From a virus, in the IMG/VR virus record IMGVR_UViG_3300020152_000052, positions 1-29,130 of that record: a DNA stretch of 29,130 nt. One strand, written 5' to 3'. The notes under the pieces were generated by a model that saw nothing but the letters and a program-made list of their open reading frames with translations, had not been told where the DNA came from and did not search any database. Position numbers and translations under genes: made by a program. Shown here piece after piece: positions 3,294 to 28,900 of this stretch (its first letter is position 1; every line of letters starts with the position of its first letter).

Positions 3294-4597
3294 CAGTAGT
3301 CAACCTCGATAGTCTTCACCTTTGGAGTAAGAGGATTAGCGCTTGTGTCGTTACGCAGGCGAATGCGTGTTTCAATATCCTTCAGGATGGCTTCGTTGGT
3401 TGTCTTGTCGTTGGTCACGTCTGGCAGTTGGATACCATATTGCGCCTGTTCGCGGTCGGACAAAGTCCCCTCACCAGGGATGCGGAATAGTGTTCTGAGT
3501 TCGGTAGACATCTGCTCACGAAGGTTATTGAAGCGCTTACGGTCTTGGCTATCAAACACAGCGCCAGCAGCCCCCGCCGCACCCATCCATCCACCCTGCA
3601 TAGTTTTATCCAGGATGCCTGTTTTGCCTGCTTCCGGATTGCCACGGAACTCGTCGATAACGTACTGCATGGACTTGCCTGCATTCTGCTTTGCGATGTT
3701 TCCAGAACGCCTGCCCATAGGAAATTCAGGTGTAGGCGAAGCAACGAATTCATCAGATTGCGAGTCGTACTTCCAGTCGATGCCTTCAGGCTTCTTGGAT
3801 GATGCGATATCTAAAGCATTCTGACGGCTAAGGTCATTCTGACCAGCCTGGAACGATTGATTGCTCTTGTTGAGAGACCATTGCTGGGCAAAATTCCGTT
3901 CCTGCATTGTGAGCTGATGGCCTTGCTGTTCCTTCATAACAATGCGCTGGAATTCCCTATTGGCCTCGACATCGGACAACTTGTCAGAGCGGTCACGCTG
4001 ATAAATCTTGTCTTCGCGCTTTTCGCCATAAGCCCTGTCCTCCAGCTTTTCCTCACGATTGAAGCCACGGTCAATGCTGCTAGAAACCATTCCAGCCATT
4101 CCGCGTGGGTCGCCAATAGCCGTGTAATACTGAAGCAGTGCAGCTTCGCGGTCTTGCGCTGTTGGAGTGACATTGCGGTATGCCGGCGTAACAGTTTGCT
4201 CACGTTGGACATTAGGTAGAGGACTGCCGAATTGGTCCATTTGCTCGGGGTTGTATGGAGTAGTCGTTACGTTCTCGCCATCCTGCACTTGTTTCGTCTT
4301 TAACGCATCAGCAAGCCGCTTTCCTGCCTCTGTAATCGTGTTTTGGCGGTTGGTGTATATCTCACGCTCTTTCTGGTCTGCTGCGCGTTCCTGCCGACCT
4401 CCTTGCCAGTTATTCAGGAGGGTCGCCAGACGTTGAGTAACCGATGGGGCGACAAACACATTGCCAACCATTTGCCCGTTAGGTTGCTGTTGCTGACGGA
4501 GAGCCTCGGCAAATTTCCGCTTGCGTCTTGCGTTTTCTATTTCGAACACATCGTTTTGAGGCATGCCGCCCCATTCACCTTGTACGAGATTAGCCAT
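3293..4597 (-). CDS. Ejection-type / internal virion protein (434 aa, helical)
   Basis: Virion protein of unknown detail, probably delivered with DNA. The first 45 residues mix Arg/Lys and Gln runs (NARRKRKFAEALRQQQQ). Residues about 175-265 are very rich in Glu, Lys, Arg, Asp and Gln, consistent with a long coiled coil. A short Gly/Ala segment (GGWMGAAGAAGAVFDS) lies at about residue 330. It has no signal peptide or recognisable enzyme motif. It starts two bases after the TAA of the upstream 369-aa gene and ends in TGATG with the 622-aa gene, so all three are one translational block. In P22-like phages three adjacent genes in this place encode the ejection proteins gp7, gp20 and gp16. This match is positional only. 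Confidence 0.5.
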   Translation of the reverse strand: MANLVQGEWGGMPQNDVFEIENARRKRKFAEALRQQQQPNGQMVGNVFVAPSVTQRLATLLNNWQGGRQERAADQKEREIYTNRQNTITEAGKRLADALKTKQVQDGENVTTTPYNPEQMDQFGSPLPNVQREQTVTPAYRNVTPTAQDREAALLQYYTAIGDPRGMAGMVSSSIDRGFNREEKLEDRAYGEKREDKIYQRDRSDKLSDVEANREFQRIVMKEQQGHQLTMQERNFAQQWSLNKSNQSFQAGQNDLSRQNALDIASSKKPEGIDWKYDSQSDEFVASPTPEFPMGRRSGNIAKQNAGKSMQYVIDEFRGNPEAGKTGILDKTMQGGWMGAAGAAGAVFDSQDRKRFNNLREQMSTELRTLFRIPGEGTLSDREQAQYGIQLPDVTNDKTTNEAILKDIETRIRLRNDTSANPLTPKVKTIEVDY

Positions 4598-16888: not shown

Positions 16889-16923
16889 AAAAAAGGCCCC
16901 GACCATTTCTGGAAGGAGCCTTT
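16889..16923 (-). terminator. Intrinsic terminator inside late leader (tR'-like)
   Basis: Minus-strand stem AAAGGCTCC / GGGGCCTTT (9 bp with one G-T pair) followed by TTTTTT. It lies about 210-240 nt downstream of the predicted late start site, close to the distance of lambda tR' from PR' (which yields 6S RNA). Confidence 0.85.
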
Positions 16924-22874: not shown

Positions 22875-22892
22875 TTTTGAGGGCCCTCTAAA
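22875..22892. repeat. GAGGGCCCTC palindrome, copy 1
   Basis: 18-bp near-palindrome with core GAGGGCCCTC (22879-22888), after the stop of the 67-aa gene. A second copy at 23101-23118 lies before the same gene. Confidence 0.6.
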
Positions 22893-22896
22893 TTTC

Positions 22897-23100
22897 CTAC
22901 TTACGGCTTCTGATGCCGTAGACCTTTGCAGGCGTCTTGCCTGTGTTCCTTCGTATTCGACTTGCCACACCATCCTTGACCAACCGAGCCGCTGCCTCTT
23001 CTTCCGTTAGCCCGTGCATCGCCGCATAGGCTTTCAGGACGCCAAGCTCCTTATCCGAAAGAAGGATTGGAACGTCCTCGTTCGGGCCCTTGTTGGTCAC
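22897..23100 (-). CDS. Small helical regulator-like protein (67 aa)
   Basis: The segment PILLSDKELGVLKAYAAMHG with LTEEEAAARLVKDGVASRI is a strand followed by two helices, as in ribbon-helix-helix proteins, and ends in a basic tail (RRNTGKTPAKVYGIRSRK). It may bind DNA; the family is not certain. The start is GTG, nine to ten bases after AGAGG within the palindrome at 23101-23118. It is bracketed by two copies of that palindrome. It occupies the place of lambda cII. Confidence 0.55.
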   Translation of the reverse strand: MTNKGPNEDVPILLSDKELGVLKAYAAMHGLTEEEAAARLVKDGVASRIRRNTGKTPAKVYGIRSRK

Positions 23101-23118
23101 TTTAGAGGGCCCTCTTAG
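23101..23118. repeat. GAGGGCCCTC palindrome, copy 2 (overlaps ribosome site)
   Basis: Core AGAGGGCCCTCT (23104-23115) is a perfect 12-bp palindrome between the stop of the 75-aa gene and the GTG of the 67-aa gene. As RNA hairpin it would hide the only candidate ribosome site of the latter. Confidence 0.6.
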
Positions 23119-23539: not shown

Positions 23540-23860
23540 TCATTCAGGTTTCCTGCGTCCAGCATCAGAGGCGCGGCGACCATATTTGGATCTACGCTTA
23601 TCACCATCTACAACAGGAGGCCAGATGTCAGGTCTAAGAGATTCGCGCGGAACAGCGCCTTTGGAGTTCTCGTCCAACAGTCGGCATAAAGCGCCGTCTA
23701 TCAGCGTTATCTTTTGGTCTTTCTTCCACTTGTATAGGATTTTCCGCAGGTATCCTGGAGAGGTCTTGCATGCATACGCGTATAGCGTACGGTCATGAAC
23801 CGGCAGACTGTGGTAGTAATTCCAGAGCAGTTCGAATGTGGGGTAATTTTGATTTTCCAT
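23540..23860 (-). CDS. Cro-like repressor (YdaS/Cro-type HTH)
   Basis: 106-aa protein. LYAYACKTSPGYLRKILYKW (residues 26-45) is the helix-turn-helix. It is followed by ITLIDGALCRLLDENSKGAV and PRESLRPDIWPPV, a C-terminal signature of Cro/YdaS-type phage regulators. The tail is Arg/Lys-rich. It is divergent from the repressor gene with only 17 bases between start codons. A promoter with TTGACA, 17 bp, TAAACT places the start of RNA at or next to the ATG, and no ribosome site is visible, so the mRNA is probably leaderless. Confidence 0.72.
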   Translation of the reverse strand: MENQNYPTFELLWNYYHSLPVHDRTLYAYACKTSPGYLRKILYKWKKDQKITLIDGALCRLLDENSKGAVPRESLRPDIWPPVVDGDKRRSKYGRRASDAGRRKPE

Positions 23861-23868
23861 GAGAGAGG

Positions 23869-23897
23869 AGTTTACCTATGGGTAAAGTCGATGTCAA
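23869..23897 (-). promoter_or_regulatory. Early leftward promoter (PR-equivalent)
   Basis: Minus strand TTGACA (23892-23897), 17 bp, TAAACT (23869-23874). One operator lies in the spacer and another just upstream of the -35 box. The first transcribed base should be within one or two bases of the Cro-like ATG at 23860. Confidence 0.75.
23871..23886. promoter_or_regulatory. Repressor operator O3
   Basis: TTTACCTATGGGTAAA, a perfect 6+6 inverted repeat around TATG. It overlaps the repressor start codon (23878) and lies in the spacer of the leftward early promoter. Confidence 0.75.
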
Positions 23898-24372
23898 TAC
23901 CTCTGGGTCAATTACTTTCAGGTACAACTTGGGGCACTATCACGGCATGGTAAATAGCAGCCCAGAGAACAAGTTCGAGTACCGCCGCAAGAAGCTCAGG
24001 GAATTAATCTCCACGCACTATGGTGGAGTGGATGCAAAGCTGGCGGAACGGATCGGAGCAGATCCTTCGTATATATCCCGTTGCCTATACCCAGAAGGTA
24101 AAGCTGGTAAAAAGAACATCGGTGAAGGGATGGTCGAGAAAATAGAGGCGGTACATCCTGGCTGGTTCCAGAATGTTTACCTGCGCCAGCTATCCCACTT
24201 CTTTATGGGTATGAGCCAGGAGCATCAAGACGACCTGCTCAAGCTAGCCAACCAGCTCTACTCGATAGACAACCCTGATGATCGGATTGCCAATCCATTT
24301 CCTCGCAAGGAGCCATGGGTAGATACAGAGAAAGAATCGAAGAAGGATACCCAAGAGGTATCAGAGAAATAG
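23878..24372 (+). CDS. CI-like prophage repressor, short form without peptidase domain
   Basis: 164-aa DNA-binding protein. Residues 36-97 (YRRKKLRELISTHYGGVDAK, LAERIGADPSYISRCL, GEGMVEKIEAVHPGWF) form a lambda-type HTH domain of the kind that ends with a conserved HPGWF-like segment. The C-terminal 65 residues are Asp/Glu/Lys-rich and contain no S24 (Ser-Lys) peptidase motif, so RecA-stimulated self-cleavage is not expected. The start at 23878 has a strong site, AGAGGAG, seven bases upstream; Met24 (23947) is an alternative. An operator overlaps the start codon, suggesting autoregulation. Both flanking promoters carry operator pairs. It is followed by a strong terminator. Confidence 0.75.
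   Translation: MGKVDVNTSGSITFRYNLGHYHGMVNSSPENKFEYRRKKLRELISTHYGGVDAKLAERIGADPSYISRCLYPEGKAGKKNIGEGMVEKIEAVHPGWFQNVYLRQLSHFFMGMSQEHQDDLLKLANQLYSIDNPDDRIANPFPRKEPWVDTEKESKKDTQEVSEK
23896..23911. promoter_or_regulatory. Repressor operator O4
   Basis: AATACCTCTGGGTCAA, an imperfect copy of the operator, 25 bp from O3 and overlapping the -35 region of the leftward promoter, inside the start of the repressor coding frame. Confidence 0.6.
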
Positions 24373-24404: not shown

Positions 24405-24432
24405 CTCATGGGCCATCGTGCCCATTTTTTTC
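24405..24432 (+). terminator. Intrinsic terminator after repressor gene
   Basis: Plus-strand ATGGGC / GCCCAT (perfect) with a six-base loop, followed by TTTTTTT. It separates the repressor transcript from the rightward early promoter. The remaining gap to 24526 holds no gene; it is U/A-rich. Confidence 0.9.
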
Positions 24433-24526: not shown

Positions 24527-24542
24527 TTTACCTATGGGTATT
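24527..24542. promoter_or_regulatory. Repressor operator O1
   Basis: TTTACCTATGGGTATT: same 12-bp core (TACCTATGGGTA) as O3, ending in the -35 box of the rightward promoter. Confidence 0.75.
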
Positions 24543-24569
24543 GACATAGCATTTACCTGTGGGTATAGT
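24541..24569 (+). promoter_or_regulatory. Early rightward promoter (PL-equivalent)
   Basis: TTGACA (24541-24546), 17 bp, TATAGT (24564-24569), close to sigma70 consensus. Operators O1 and O2 sit exactly as in the leftward promoter. RNA should begin near 24576. Confidence 0.85.
24552..24567. promoter_or_regulatory. Repressor operator O2
   Basis: TTTACCTGTGGGTATA in the spacer of the rightward promoter, 25 bp from O1. Confidence 0.75.
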
Positions 24570-24575
24570 TGCACC

Positions 24576-25104
24576 ATCAACTAAGCAATCAGTTGACTAG
24601 CAACAAGTGACCCACCGACGAGAGATGAGCCGTAGCGAAGGGTCAGCAACAGGGAGACTCACCTGACTTGTACTGAAAAGCCGAAGCCTTATTGGATAAG
24701 CGAAGTAGGTGGCTAGAAATGGTAAGCAGTAGAGGCAAGCAACAAGCCAAAGTGAGCGCGAAGCTCCTGACGGGTTGGCACCTATCGGGAGTAATTCACA
24801 GCAGCGTAGACAGACCTAAGCGAGGGTGCTGCGGGAGGGAACAAGCGGGGCTGGCAGATCGGCTGGCAAGCGCAATCCTGAAGATGTTTAGCGAAATTGC
24901 CAAGTTTCGCGGGGGCTTGCCCCTACTGCTTATCAGGTAGCAGTCAGTAGTGGAGTAGGAGCGGCCTAGCGAATGGATCTAGGAGCAAGGGCGTGCGAGG
25001 TGCAGCCCAACTTCTCGGAAACGAGAACGGGCGTGGGCGAATAGGCGACGAAAGAAGCCCCGCTGAACTAAAGCCAGCAATTCCGACTGGCCTCCTACTC
25101 CAGT
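24576..25104 (+). ncRNA. Large structured early leader RNA (about 530 nt), unassigned class
   Basis: Gene-free stretch beginning at the rightward promoter. Successive helices are seen: TCAACT / AGTTGA (24577-24596); ACAAGT / ACTTGT (24603 with 24671) enclosing GACCC / GGGTC and CAGG / CCTG as a junction; AGCC / GGCT (24679 with 24714) enclosing CTTAT / ATAAG; GAGC / GCTC with a GCGAA loop (24754-24766); GCAGC / GCTGC (24801-24832); GCGAAA / TTTCGC (24891-24910); ACTGCT / AGCAGT (24925-24944); TTCTCG / CGAGAA with a GAAA tetraloop (25012-25027) extended by GCCC / GGGC; and a long closing helix GGAGTAGGAG / CTCCTACTCC plus GCC / GGC (24952-24966 with 25089-25101). Joining segments are purine-rich. 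The one frame inside (24692-24940) has no ribosome site. No terminator follows, so it may be a leader of the operon or be processed. Confidence 0.65.
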
Positions 25105-25140
25105 ATTGATTGAGAAACGCGGGATTTTGTTTATTAGGTC

Positions 25141-25176
25141 ACTCGGTTGATTGGCTGAGTGCAGAAAGGAAGCAAC
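25141..25176 (+). promoter_or_regulatory. Repeated gene-leader element, copy d
   Basis: ACTCGG, 16 nt, AGAAAGGA, 6 nt, GTG (25177). It also can pair ACTCGG with CTGAGT within the 16-nt spacer. Confidence 0.75.
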
Positions 25177-25422
25177 GTGGAATGGATTAGCGTAAACGAA
25201 CGACTGCCGGACGAGTTCGAGTCTGTGCTTGCCTGCGCTCGGCTTGATGGCGACACCAAGTACAGCGTGGGAGAGGCGTTTTGGTCTCGCGGCTGGAGTT
25301 CGGTCAGAACCTACGACGCGCTAGATGATGTGACCCATTGGATGCCGTTGCCACCATTGCCTGATGTTCTGCAACCCAACCAGTTTACCGAGCAACAAAA
25401 TGTACAAAAGGAGCAGTTATGA
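25177..25422 (+). CDS. DUF551 family protein (first copy)
   Basis: 81-aa protein. MEWISVNERLPDEFESVLAC at the start and DDVTHWMPLPPLPD near residues 52-65 are the two hallmark segments of DUF551, frequent in phages and of unknown function. The GTG start is fixed by the leader element and by the identical MEWISVN start of the second copy (26923); a longer frame from 25159 would add residues translated from the ribosome site. The C-terminal tail is Gln/Asn-rich. The stop overlaps the next ATG (ATGA). Confidence 0.78.
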   Translation: MEWISVNERLPDEFESVLACARLDGDTKYSVGEAFWSRGWSSVRTYDALDDVTHWMPLPPLPDVLQPNQFTEQQNVQKEQL

Positions 25423-25751
25423 ACTCCCCTCTCACTACTACAGAACACGAACAGATGAATGAGCGGTATGCCGAAGTGATTCCGCTAGAGCGTCACATTG
25501 AGCAAAAGCGCAACCTGTTCATAGGCGAAATCATGGATGCCATGCGTGAACATCGCTTATCCGAGTTCCATGACGAGTCCTGGGAATTTGCTGATGAGGC
25601 CGCTGCGATTCTCTGTGATGACGAGGACGATAAAGAAGGCAGATTGAACGACTTGCATTTCAGAACATGCATGAAGGTAGCTGAGTGGATAGCAGATAAC
25701 CCAAAGGGCATGTACGAGCGTATGGCTCTGAAGAAATTGGGAATGGCTTAA
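25419..25751 (+). CDS. Hypothetical acidic phage protein (110 aa)
   Basis: Not recognised. It is a mostly helical, charged protein with IEQKRNLFIGEIMDAMREHR (residues about 27-46), an acidic CDDEDDKEGRLND stretch and a C-terminal helix (CMKVAEWIADNPKGMYERMA). AAAGGAG lies five bases before ATG; the gene is coupled to the DUF551 gene by ATGA and followed closely by the next gene. Confidence 0.65.
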   Translation: MNSPLTTTEHEQMNERYAEVIPLERHIEQKRNLFIGEIMDAMREHRLSEFHDESWEFADEAAAILCDDEDDKEGRLNDLHFRTCMKVAEWIADNPKGMYERMALKKLGMA

Positions 25752-25761
25752 GGAGGGAATG

Positions 25762-26019
25762 ATGAGCGAGAAGAGCAAATACGCAGAAACTCTGAATGCC
25801 TTAGTTGATATGCAAAGTTCTGTTGCCTACGCCGTAAGAAGGCAAACTTTGATCAATGCAGAGCAAGCGATTGTTGAATTAGAGCAACAGCGGGACGAAC
25901 TTCTAGCAGCAGCTAGAGCGGTAGTTGGATTAGCAACTGTGCATTTCCCTGGCTATCACCTTCCGTCTATTGCCATCAAGCAATGTGAAGAAGCCATCGC
26001 CAAGGTTGAATCCAAATGA
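25762..26019 (+). CDS. Small coiled-coil phage protein (85 aa)
   Basis: Helical protein with AEQAIVELEQQRDELLAAAR (residues about 35-54), a pattern common in short phage proteins of unknown role, then a HFPGYHLPSIAIKQCEEAI end. Two ATGs are adjacent (25759 and 25762); the second has the better distance (five bases) from AGGAGG. The stop overlaps the next start (ATGA). Confidence 0.6.
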   Translation: MSEKSKYAETLNALVDMQSSVAYAVRRQTLINAEQAIVELEQQRDELLAAARAVVGLATVHFPGYHLPSIAIKQCEEAIAKVESK

Positions 26020-26216
26020 TCTTCCAACCTAGACACAAGCCCTGCCCTTCCTGTCAACAACTCTGTGAGCCTAGAACTGTTAGGTGCAAGTGGTGTGGAG
26101 ATTGGTTCATAGCTGATTGGAACAAGGGAGATAAGAAGATAAGCCCTATTCCTACAGGGTTAATGATTGGTTATTTGGGTGATAGAGCGCTAAGCCAACC
26201 AAAAGAAGCTGCTTAG
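26016..26216 (+). CDS. Small zinc-ribbon protein (66 aa)
   Basis: Two Cys pairs, CPSC at residues 10-13 and CKWC at about 24-27, with CE between them, form a compact zinc ribbon. They are followed by GDWFIADWNKGDKK. It probably binds nucleic acid or a protein partner; the function is unknown. It is coupled to the preceding gene by ATGA and ends 13 bases before the next leader element. Confidence 0.55.
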   Translation: MIFQPRHKPCPSCQQLCEPRTVRCKWCGDWFIADWNKGDKKISPIPTGLMIGYLGDRALSQPKEAA

Positions 26217-26229
26217 GGAAGATTTTGTT

Positions 26230-26265
26230 ACTCGGTAAACGAGCTAATTGCAGAAAGGAAACATC
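26230..26265 (+). promoter_or_regulatory. Repeated gene-leader element, copy e
   Basis: ACTCGG, 16 nt, AGAAAGGA, 6 nt, ATG (26266). Around the box, TTAC TCG GTAA is a short perfect inverted repeat, and CTCG / CGAG can form a hairpin. Confidence 0.75.
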
Positions 26266-26490
26266 ATGAAATTTGAGAATCACGAAGCATTTTTTGAGAG
26301 CTGTGGAGCTTACAGCGTAAGAGCCGAACTGCCAGAGGCGGGTATTCAAGTGAGCATCGAGGAAATGTACAGCCACTTCAAAGAAAGGCTGCTCGATGAA
26401 CTAGCCGCCGAGCACTACATGAAGAAAGAGAAATACGGTCGCCGCAGGGCAGACACTTCCATGAGGAAACAAAATGAACAATCAGCCTAG
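26266..26490 (+). CDS. Hypothetical phage protein (74 aa)
   Basis: Not recognised. MKFENHEAFFESCGAYSVRA opens the protein, and a helical EEMYSHFKERLLDELAAEHY and a basic tail (KKEKYGRRRADTSMRKQ) follow. The ATG at 26266 is set by the leader element; an earlier in-frame start (26248) lies inside that element. It overlaps the next gene by 17 bases. Confidence 0.6.
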   Translation: MKFENHEAFFESCGAYSVRAELPEAGIQVSIEEMYSHFKERLLDELAAEHYMKKEKYGRRRADTSMRKQNEQSA

Positions 26491-26686
26491 AAAAACTGAG
26501 TTCGTGGATTGGCTGATTTTCATCTCCATGGTGATTGTTGGGCTGTTAGAGATATTCGTGAAAGGTTCAGTGCTTTCAGGCTCCCTTGTTCTGCTACTTG
26601 GATGTCTTGGTCTGTCTCTGCTGATTGGCAAGGTTTGGATGGGGCGAAGGATCGACCAGCTTTCAAACCGAACCCAAGTTGATTAG
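26474..26686 (+). CDS. Small two-span membrane protein (70 aa)
   Basis: Two hydrophobic helices are seen at residues about 12-29 (WLIFISMVIVGLLEIFV) and 32-52 (VLSGSLVLLLGCLGLSLLIG), followed by a basic cytoplasmic tail. GAGGAAAC precedes ATG. It is translated from within the end of the previous gene. The role is unknown; candidates are superinfection exclusion or another lysogeny-associated membrane function. Confidence 0.6.
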   Translation: MNNQPRKTEFVDWLIFISMVIVGLLEIFVKGSVLSGSLVLLLGCLGLSLLIGKVWMGRRIDQLSNRTQVD

Positions 26687-26729
26687 CACAGTAGCCAAAT
26701 AAACAAACTCAAGCTCTATGGAGGTACAC

Positions 26730-26900
26730 ATGAAAAGAAAACTACTAAAGCTCTATGTGAATAACTTTCCAAGTGGATTCTTGATACGCGTTAAGGCAAG
26801 AAACTCTATCAGACGAGATAGCAGGGGTGAGATTAAGCGTAACTGGATGTTTGAAGGAAACCGGACGGATTTTGTACATCAGTTCGGGCTTCGTGGATAA
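26730..26900 (+). CDS. Small basic protein (56 aa)
   Basis: MKRKLLKLYVNNFPSGFLIR begins a very basic protein with many Arg/Lys/Asn and an ending WMFEGNRTDFVHQFGLRG. GGAGG lies five bases before the ATG at 26730, so the in-frame ATG four codons earlier is less likely. It may bind nucleic acid, but no motif is recognised. Confidence 0.5.
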   Translation: MKRKLLKLYVNNFPSGFLIRVKARNSIRRDSRGEIKRNWMFEGNRTDFVHQFGLRG

Positions 26901-26922
26901 CGGATTGCAGAAAGGATAAATC

Positions 26923-27297
26923 GTGGAATGGATCAGCGTAAATGACCGCCTACCAATCACGGAAGAAATGATGGGTAGTGATTGTTTCAAGACTGTAGAT
27001 GTAATCGCCTATGACGGTGAGCGGGTCATGCCTGCCACGTTCGAAGCTGGCAACACCCTGAAATTCTGGTGCAGGTTTTCCAATACAGGATATGACTTCA
27101 CTCATTGGATGCCATTACCACTTGGGCCTAATGAGCAACTACCTGATGGAAGAGATTTTCACAAGATTATCCAACTGCTGCGCTCTGATAAAAACGTGAC
27201 TCGCGGTACTGCGGAAAGAGCTGCTGAGGCTATTGAGTTTTTGTTAGCACCACGCAGCAGGAAACTGACGAAATCGACCCATGAGCGCATGTTATAG
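26923..27297 (+). CDS. DUF551 family protein (second copy)
   Basis: 124-aa paralogue of the gene at 25177. It begins MEWISVNDRLPITEE and has YDFTHWMPLPLGP at about residues 58-70, the same two hallmark segments. It carries an extra C-terminal approximately 50 residues (DFHKIIQLLRSDKNVTRGTA), a helical extension absent from the first copy. The GTG start follows AGAAAGGA by six bases as in the leader elements, but the ACTCGG box is missing because that place is occupied by the end of the previous gene. Confidence 0.78.
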   Translation: MEWISVNDRLPITEEMMGSDCFKTVDVIAYDGERVMPATFEAGNTLKFWCRFSNTGYDFTHWMPLPLGPNEQLPDGRDFHKIIQLLRSDKNVTRGTAERAAEAIEFLLAPRSRKLTKSTHERML

Positions 27298-27314
27298 ACA
27301 GCAACGGAGAAATC

Positions 27315-27833
27315 ATGACTGACAAAACACATTACAGAAAAGCGTTTGACTCTCCCTACTTGAGCAGCGCAGACATTGTTGAGCCAACCGTATTCACCAT
27401 CCGCGAGGTTCGGCTTGAGCCAGACCAGACCAAGAAAACAAAGGATCTGTTTAACACAGCCTACTTTCAGGAAAAAGAGATTCGCCCTGGTGAAAAGCTG
27501 AAGCCAATGATTCTCAACGCCACGAACAGCAAGACGATGAAGGCGCTGACCAATTCCCCATTTATTGATGATTGGCGAGGCGTAAGAGTCACGATCTATG
27601 TTGACCATAACGTGAGGTTCGGCAAAGAGACTTTGGAAGGCTTACGCATCAGCCCACACGTTCCGGAGCGCAAGCAACTCACGCCCAAGAACGAGAAGCA
27701 ATGGAATCTGGCTAAGGCCGCATACAAGCGCGATGGGAACTTAGTTTCAGTGCTGGCGCGGGTTGATATGTCGCCAGAACATCAGAAACAGCTTATTGCT
27801 GAATGCGAAGCGAAAGAGGAAGTCACTGAATGA
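27315..27833 (+). CDS. Conserved phage protein next to exonuclease (172 aa)
   Basis: HYRKAFDSPYLSSADIVEPT at the start and MILNATNSKTMKALTNSPF, then DDWRGVRVTIYVDHNVRFGK (residues about 74-115) are a pattern found in proteins encoded directly before YqaJ-type exonucleases. The beta-rich core and partnership suggest a role in the recombination module, possibly single-strand binding or annealing, but no motif proves it. CGGAG lies five bases before ATG; the stop overlaps the exonuclease start (ATGA). Confidence 0.6.
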   Translation: MTDKTHYRKAFDSPYLSSADIVEPTVFTIREVRLEPDQTKKTKDLFNTAYFQEKEIRPGEKLKPMILNATNSKTMKALTNSPFIDDWRGVRVTIYVDHNVRFGKETLEGLRISPHVPERKQLTPKNEKQWNLAKAAYKRDGNLVSVLARVDMSPEHQKQLIAECEAKEEVTE

Positions 27834-28447
27834 TTTTCCATGACGTAGAGCAGAACACCGAAGAATGGAACAGGCTGCGAATCGGCAAAGCCACAGCATC
27901 CAACTTCGCCTGCTTTATGGCTAACGATGGCAAGGCATTCGGTGATCCGGCTAAGAAATATGCGCTACAAATTGCGCTAGAGAGGATTACTGGCAAGAAG
28001 GCGGAGTATAGCTTCTCCAATGAACACATGGAGCGAGGCCACGAACAGGAGCCTATAGCTCGGATGCTGTACGAAGAGGAAAGATATTGCGACGTTGCAA
28101 ATGGCGGTTTCTTCTGCTGCGGTGAATATGGAGATTCACCAGATGGAAGGGTGGGCAGTGATGGCCTAGTAGAGATTAAGTCGGTCATTGCTCCCACCCA
28201 CTACGCCACCATGCAGAGAAAGAACTACGACCCATCCTACAAGTGGCAGCTTGTAGGCCACCTGGATTGCACCGGGCGCGATTGGGTGGACTTTATTAGT
28301 TACTGCTCAGACTTCCCTTTCGAGAATCAGTTGCTCGTTTACAGGGTGGACAGAGATGGCGTCAAGGAAGAATTGAAGCGGCTACAAGAGCGCCGAGAGC
28401 AGTTTCTTGAATTAGTAGAACAAACATTCAACAACCTTAAAGGATAG
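27830..28447 (+). CDS. YqaJ-type (lambda Exo-like) recombination exonuclease
   Basis: 205-aa PD-(D/E)XK exonuclease that resects double-strand ends during phage recombination. Motifs: RIGKATASNF at residues 17-26, MERGHEQEP at 67-75, the metal site SPDGR (Asp105) and VEIKS (Glu115, Lys117), and YKWQLVGHLDCTG at 137-149 with Gln140. The length is close to lambda Exo (226 aa). It lies in the PL-type operon between its putative partner and SSB, as in many temperate phages. Confidence 0.88.
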   Translation: MIFHDVEQNTEEWNRLRIGKATASNFACFMANDGKAFGDPAKKYALQIALERITGKKAEYSFSNEHMERGHEQEPIARMLYEEERYCDVANGGFFCCGEYGDSPDGRVGSDGLVEIKSVIAPTHYATMQRKNYDPSYKWQLVGHLDCTGRDWVDFISYCSDFPFENQLLVYRVDRDGVKEELKRLQERREQFLELVEQTFNNLKG

Positions 28448-28450
28448 AAC

Positions 28451-28900
28451 ATGGCTTCAGTAAATCGAGTGATTCTAGTTGGCAACTTGGGGCGTGACCC
28501 TGAAATGCGTTACATGCCATCTGGCGACCCTATTGCAAACTTCAGCATTGCAACTACAGACTCTTGGAAAGACAAGTCCGGCCAGAAGCAGGAGCGCACA
28601 GAATGGCACCGTATCAGCATGTTCGGGAAACTGGCTGAAATCGCCGGCGAGTATCTCCACAAGGGTTCGCAAGTCTACATTGAAGGACGCTTGCAAACGC
28701 AGAAGTGGGTGGATAAGGACAGCCAAGAGGAGAGGCAGCGCACTGAGATTATCGCTGATCGTATGCAAATGCTCGGGGGCAAATCTTCGAATGATGGTTC
28801 CACCCAATCTTCCAGTCCGCAACCCAGCGTCAACGAAGCGAAACCAAATGAACAAAAAGCAGGCGCCTTTGATGATTTTGAGAGCGATATTCCCTTCTGA
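28451..28900 (+). CDS. ssb: Single-stranded DNA-binding protein
   Basis: 149-aa SSB. The OB fold covers residues 1-107: [20 protein letters not shown], then [37 protein letters not shown] and [15 protein letters not shown] Ser/Gln/Asn/Pro linker follows and the acidic tip DFESDIPF (142-149) is the protein-interaction tail, which would contact the exonuclease partner, NinB and host factors. AAAGGA lies six bases before ATG. Confidence 0.95.

Follow-up and report, generated by a model that had tools for sequence, protein, structure and literature searches.

GOLLD and ROOL RNAs adopt conserved, densely packed folds that assemble into RNA cages, and they often lie near tRNA islands (PMC12286853). 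Like the RNA analyzed here, they are large noncoding RNAs of phages or prophages. The putL element of phage HK022 is located directly downstream of PL, begins only a few bases from the RNA's 5' end, and needs no phage protein. The put RNA is approximately 70 nt long with two stem-loops, and a second copy, putR, is present in the right operon (PMC9378689). Phage tRNAs are known to counter defences that target tRNAs (PMC11555353). We compared these systems with an early RNA encoded in a virus DNA of 29,130 nucleotides (IMG/VR record IMGVR_UViG_3300020152_000052, positions 1-29,130), which we refer to as the window. This RNA is of a known kind, the large phage noncoding RNAs, and its architecture was not found described: literature searches, mostly outside subscription papers, returned no description of this RNA or of the helix-framed RNAs of Pseudomonas phages discussed below.

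The locus is organised like the pL-type operon of lambdoid phages. A gene for a CI-like repressor (23878-24372, + strand) is followed by an intrinsic terminator at 24408. Its HTH region resembles that of phage CI proteins, with a PHROG match to a transcriptional regulator (E = 3e-10) and tblastn matches to annotated CI repressors. A Cro/repressor-like gene is read leftward (23540-23860, - strand; PHROG transcriptional repressor, E = 6e-7). The first-pass annotation proposed a near-consensus, repressor-controlled promoter ahead of the RNA, and this assignment is borne out by a sigma-70 promoter, TTGACA-17-TATAGT (24541-24569, + strand), that matches the consensus at 11 of 12 positions and is accompanied by operator-like repeats (TTTACCTRTGGGTA). 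One exact copy of the repeat, TTTACCTATGGGTA, is located 5' of the -35 element (24527-24540, + strand), and another, TTTACCTGTGGGTA, covers the spacer and the -10 element (24552-24565, + strand). A third (23871-23884) overlaps the repressor start and the leftward, divergent promoter. In all, nine matches with three or fewer mismatches occur where 2.5 are expected. Given the position of the promoter, the transcript is predicted to start at about A24576, and a noncoding RNA of approximately 540 bases would then be the first transcript of the phage upon release of the repressor. No intrinsic terminator was found on the + strand between this RNA and the early genes, and the early operon (25180-28900, + strand) is consequently predicted to be read through from it. 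The operon encodes a DUF551 protein, a conserved 110-aa protein, a recombination-associated 172-aa protein, a YqaJ exonuclease, and an SSB-like protein.

Other repeats are present in this part of the genome. An element of the form ATTAGGT..CTCGGT..TGCAGAAAGGA occupies 25123-25170 (+ strand), 5' of the first early gene, with a second window copy at 26231 and four copies in a homologous phage (G048, below). As an intergenic repeat (ATTAGGT..CTCGGTAAATAGG..TGCAGAAAGGA) it is found directly 5' of several early genes, where it is partly a hairpin ending in the ribosome-binding site. Its copies lie at 25123-25170 and 26217-26265 of the window, L203:19150-19190, and L204:545-590, 1005-1040 and 3875-3925. 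Separately, a perfect 14-bp inverted repeat (GAGGGCCCTCTAAA..TTTAGAGGGCCCTC; 22879-23114) surrounds a small gene (22897-23100, - strand).

The noncoding leader RNA extends from about 24576 to 25112 on the + strand (537 nt). All three of its frames hold stops, and the longest open stretch is 87 codons. An 82-aa ORF with a TTG start (24692-24940) was rejected as a gene, as it matches no Pfam or PHROG family and is absent from G048. The homologous RNA of G048 has no forward ORF of 40 aa, and no frame is kept between the two RNAs, in agreement with the first-pass view that the region holds no credible gene. Purines make up 60% of the RNA, about the highest content among 537-nt stretches of the + strand of the contig. 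The pentamer GCGAA occurs six times where 1.1 are expected, an excess that is not significant in a family-wise test (0.19), and enrichment of GNRA is weak. A role as a sponge for a CsrA-type protein was rejected, since GGA is not enriched. The reverse strand of the region folds about equally well and strand asymmetry is weak. Folding energy therefore cannot tell the strand, and the assignment to the + strand rests on the promoter, the high purine content, and the homologue G048.

The RNA begins with a short hairpin, UCAACUAA-GCAA-UCAGUUGA (24577-24596, + strand), that starts at position +2 of the predicted transcript and is kept in G048, where it has 8 bp and a GCAA tetraloop. Behind it lie domains of 120, 216 and 172 nt. 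The 5' domain (24597-24716, + strand) folds weakly (z = -1.2). Sequence comparison and the G048 fold suggest a candidate closing helix between CUAGC (24597-24601) and GCUAG (24712-24716), equivalent to CUAGCAA/UUGCUAG in G048. This helix is tentative because it is not part of the minimum-energy fold in the window. The second domain, module D2 (24720-24935, + strand), consists of a 174-nt interior between 21-nt arms (24720-24740/24915-24935) that pair with a single A.C mismatch. Module D3 (24941-25112, + strand) starts 5 nt past the D2 helix and has a 130-nt interior between 21-nt arms (24941-24961/25092-25112) with one G.G mismatch; its helix is kept in G048 with compensatory changes. Elsewhere in the contig, a single helix of this quality is found in 7% of 605-nt stretches, and two are found in none. 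The 5-mer AGAAA flanks the D2 and D3 pair on both sides (24715-24719 and 25113-25117), which could be due to chance or be the trace of an insertion.

The folding energy of the RNA stems from the closing helices. The folding z-score is -3.6 for 24560-25135 and -5.95 for D3 (24941-25112), and the interiors alone, with the closing helices removed, score +0.2 (D2) and -0.6 (D3) against dinucleotide shuffles and are thus shuffle-like. These values bear on the first-pass description of a structured noncoding early RNA, which is upheld in its promoter, its lack of a gene, its long helices, and its GAAA hairpin. The reported 13-bp long-range helix is the outer part of the 21-nt-armed helix of D2. The tetraloop hairpin is present within D3 at approximately 25006-25027 (+ strand) as UUCUCG-GAAA-CGAGAA. 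The 'dense run' of structure is the part that does not hold, given the scores of the two interiors and the 5' domain and the similar folding of the reverse strand.

One clear homologue of the RNA is present in G048 (IMG/VR record IMGVR_UViG_3300020147_000018), a phage reached through the 172-aa protein, which is 94% identical. The gene order of G048 matches that of the window, with a leftward Cro-like gene, a rightward repressor, operators, a promoter, the noncoding RNA, and the early genes. Its operator-like repeats differ in sequence from those of the window, and its promoter, at the equivalent position, is TTGCAA-16-TATAAT. A homologue of the 110-aa protein (39% identity) follows the noncoding stretch. 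At the 5' end of the transcript (24576-24603), 26 of 28 nucleotides are identical in G048, including the terminal hairpin with its GCAA loop. Past these 28 nt the only alignable stretch of the two RNAs is AGTCAGTAGT, where the last helix begins. The G048 RNA is the shorter of the two because it contains a single module, compared with two in the window.

The first-pass annotation had named covarying pairs in homologues as a check of its assignment, and the last helix provides them. Its arms are CAGUCAGUAGUGGAGUAGGAG/CUCCUACUCCAGUAUUGAUUG in the window and UAGUCAGUAGUAAGGAGAGG/CCUCUCCUUACUGCUGACUA in G048, and it was detected independently in each sequence. Between the two phages 8 of its 20 pairs are changed on both sides, a further three show a wobble change, and 97.5% of cells are paired. 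Sliding the helix by one to three columns reduces pairing to 25-65%. The arms thus remain paired despite their altered sequence, and the helix is accordingly selected as a helix. Comparison of the two sequences suggests that selection keeps the 5' end and the closing helix, and that the interiors are free to differ between phages.

Further members of this family were sought by several routes. Patterns made from the 5' end recovered only G048 from IMG/VR and GTDB genomes; the other matches were chance hits in coding sequence. The closest relatives were found in Burkholderiales, Pseudomonas, Dyella and Stenotrophomonas. Blastn searches with the window RNA (phages and plasmids) and with the G048 RNA (phages) returned no match, and no relatives were found through the repressor or through the 110-aa protein alone. 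A search through the portal protein found no homologue of the early region. One record found with a two-protein profile (L222) has the homologous gene and no such RNA. A sliding fold-energy scan of 50 relatives was not discriminating.

As the first-pass annotation stated, the RNA is not a recognised one: a cmscan search with the Rfam 15 covariance models gave no match at the gathering score or at E values up to 10. Group I and group II introns, HEARO, riboswitches and other Rfam classes were rejected for lack of a covariance-model match, and a retron was rejected because no reverse transcriptase is found among the annotated proteins. Mimicry of tRNA by this RNA itself was likewise rejected, as it contains no strict T-arm and has no Rfam tRNA match. 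In this respect it is unlike phage-encoded tRNAs. The proposal of a large noncoding early RNA stands in that the RNA is promoter-proximal, with long-range helices and covariation. The likeness to GOLLD and ROOL drawn along with it fails in detail. Unlike those RNAs, this one has no Rfam match, its interiors are variable and weakly structured, and it sits at an early promoter; constant ends and a constant helix around an unrelated interior are not what a fixed ornate fold would show. The term framed early leader RNA suits it better.

RNAs with a comparable architecture surfaced in a long-helix scan near the same 172-aa gene in other phages. Their frame in Pseudomonas phages consists of AACTGCCCGATCC, a short hairpin, GCATCGG..., and then ...CCGATGC. 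It is located in early operons downstream of cI in Medea1, MD8, phiPSA1 and PseuP_224, has an equivalent place in Orimi01, and is found in at least 120 stretches in IMG/VR and in 23 phage records. Instances include L182:860-1180, L223:4985-5175, L224-L227 and L228-L347. The closing helices are 17-29 bp long. In a set of 15 distinct helices hand-picked for the common frame, pairing holds in 98.9% of cells, and double changes number 77, compared with 24 in shuffles. The interiors, of about 30-160 nt, are unrelated in sequence between types. Across 71 helices, departures to G.U and to A.C are equally common (41 and 42), and these helices alone consequently do not prove an RNA. Two other recurring helix frames, ACAAGGAAGCTG../..CAGCTTCCTTGT and GGTTTTTGYGTC../..GAYGCAAGAA, occur near the same recombination genes (L138:7739-7828, L143:1688-1770, L350:5739-5828; L147:6693-6796, L170:6244-6333).

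The framed RNAs of the Pseudomonas phages resemble the window RNA in their position in the early operon beside cI, in a covarying closing helix of about 20 bp with a variable interior, and in sometimes occurring in tandem. They differ in that they usually lie behind the first small gene rather than starting at +1. Nucleotide searches and inspection found no similarity to their frame (AACTGCCCGATCC..GCATCGG/CCGATGC) in the window RNA.

Some of these Pseudomonas frames enclose interiors with features of tRNA. Of 54 interior clusters, 3 have a strict T-arm on the sense strand, against an expectation of 0.03, and none has one on the other strand. Interiors that resemble tRNAs or only parts of them (T-arms, D-arms) were found in L250, L291, L270/L342, L256/L289, L255 and L228. 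No tRNA was called in the Pseudomonas interiors by ARAGORN, or by Rfam where scanned. The L256/L289 interiors also carry a tmRNA-like GGTTCGACGG start.

Related shapes occur in phages closer to this one and in the window itself. The early operon of G033, which shares its portal protein with the window phage, includes a tRNA-like RNA whose extended acceptor stem is a perfect 16-bp helix (z = -5.05; L108:11294-11418, equivalent to G033:31294-31418). A promoter (TTGACT..TAATAT) lies 600 nt upstream of it in G033, followed by about 220 nt with no obvious gene. Within the window, a second structured noncoding locus is located between structural-module genes on the minus strand (17180-16300) and contains the helix AGCTATCCC../..GGGATAGCT. 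Its tRNA-shaped module (17048-16946, - strand; z = -6.4) has a GAAA tetraloop in place of the anticodon loop and an acceptor stem extended to 23-nt arms; it scores 41.2 bits with the Rfam tRNA model and is not called by ARAGORN. The same locus has a further module, whose arms are 25 nt long (16729-16636), and hairpins that resemble terminators near 16900 and 16310. Two loci were noted in other relatives. The early operon of one includes a noncoding stretch in which a strong hairpin accompanies the T-arm-like GGGTTCGAATCCC (L149:2300-2540), and another, which has the portal protein in common with the window phage, carries a group I intron (RF00028, 63.7 bits; L043:12201-12888). No sequence ties the window RNA to the Pseudomonas frames or to the tRNA-like modules, so any kinship lies in shared architecture and location only.

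What is established for the window RNA is the promoter, the lack of coding, the helices, the covariation of one of them in one homologue, and the conserved locus. On our best reading it is a promoter-proximal noncoding leader of a repressor-controlled, pL-type early operon. It starts with the conserved 5' hairpin and a short 5' domain, which are followed by a tandem pair of modules, each with a closing helix of about 21 bp. We tentatively favour a model, to which we give somewhat less than an even chance, in which the long helices are a frame that would fold the module during transcription of the operon. RNase III would probably cut the framed module out of the early mRNA. At an early stage of infection or induction, the interior could then act in trans, serving as a decoy or mimic and occupying an RNA-binding factor of the host, plausibly a component of a defence system. 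This trans-acting role is suggested by analogy to the similarly placed helix-framed RNAs with tRNA-shaped interiors in other phages. It has in common with the defence-evading phage tRNAs (PMC11555353) the idea of a phage RNA that bears on tRNA-directed defences. Some framed modules also share the tRNA-like shape, although they differ from phage tRNAs in their abnormal anticodon arms, their extended stems, and their not being called by ARAGORN. Our confidence in this model is restrained because the interiors of the window RNA are not tRNA-like and are unstructured by themselves, and because what connects it to the tRNA-like modules is shared architecture and location rather than descent.

The main rival, which we consider somewhat unlikely, is antitermination in cis by a put-like mechanism, in which the nascent leader binds the transcribing polymerase and causes it to read through terminators and pauses of the early operon. 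The operon type is the same as for HK022 putL, and the part of the RNA that is kept in sequence is only the first 28 nt of the transcript. Like putL, it would be the first RNA from a lambdoid left early promoter, with a conserved hairpin a few bases from its 5' end, just downstream of that promoter. No N-like gene was recognised, in a test of low sensitivity. However, put is an RNA of about 70 nt with two stem-loops, whereas this one has 537 nt, in which one short hairpin precedes the three larger domains and two 21-bp helices. HK022 also has putR, and a search of the window and G048 for another occurrence of the conserved 5' end, allowing 8 mismatches in 26, found none, although a diverged copy could escape it. 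The lack of a + strand intrinsic terminator before the early genes also speaks against this mechanism, and unrelated interiors would be unexpected if the partner of the RNA were a conserved polymerase. Alternatively, the RNA could be an ordinary long 5' untranslated leader whose hairpin protects the mRNA, whose helices are RNase III or stability elements that tune the early genes, and whose interiors are functionless. This explanation, which we regard as unlikely, would fit early genes that follow without a terminator, interiors without detectable structure, and the typical preference of RNase III for long helices, but processing need not keep a noncoding interior of 130-174 nt twice in a compact phage genome.

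It is still less probable that the inverted repeats act as DNA, as a cruciform or single-strand hairpin, a replication or recombination site, or the ends of small mobile elements, with transcription being incidental. The reverse strand folds about equally well, the Pseudomonas helices lack an asymmetry between G.U and A.C, and the interiors are swapped like inserts, with AGAAA on both sides of D2 and D3. Against this, the arms covary and therefore do not keep a sequence-specific DNA-binding site or transposase end, the module starts just 3' of a strong promoter in both phages, and the T-arm motifs of the analogous modules are found on the transcribed strand only. Chance structure in functionless spacer DNA would account for the weak folding of the interiors, but it is made very improbable by the compensatory changes in G048 and by how seldom the contig has such helices.

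We raise as a rather doubtful possibility that temperate phages of Pseudomonadota carry a general module in which a covarying helix of about 20 bp presents exchangeable interiors that act early and in trans as mimics. Such modules would be sited in early operons or noncoding cassettes, their interiors would include non-decoding tRNA shapes, and their targets would be host factors or defences. The window RNA would then exemplify a tandem arrangement of two modules. A role is known for few phage noncoding RNAs. A frame that can be recognised by its constant helix, swapped interior and early expression offers a handle for bulk discovery of such RNAs in lambdoid-type phages and for testing trans action on RNA-binding proteins of the host. 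Should the tRNA-shaped interiors be decoys, RNA counter-defence would be far commoner than is now recognised.
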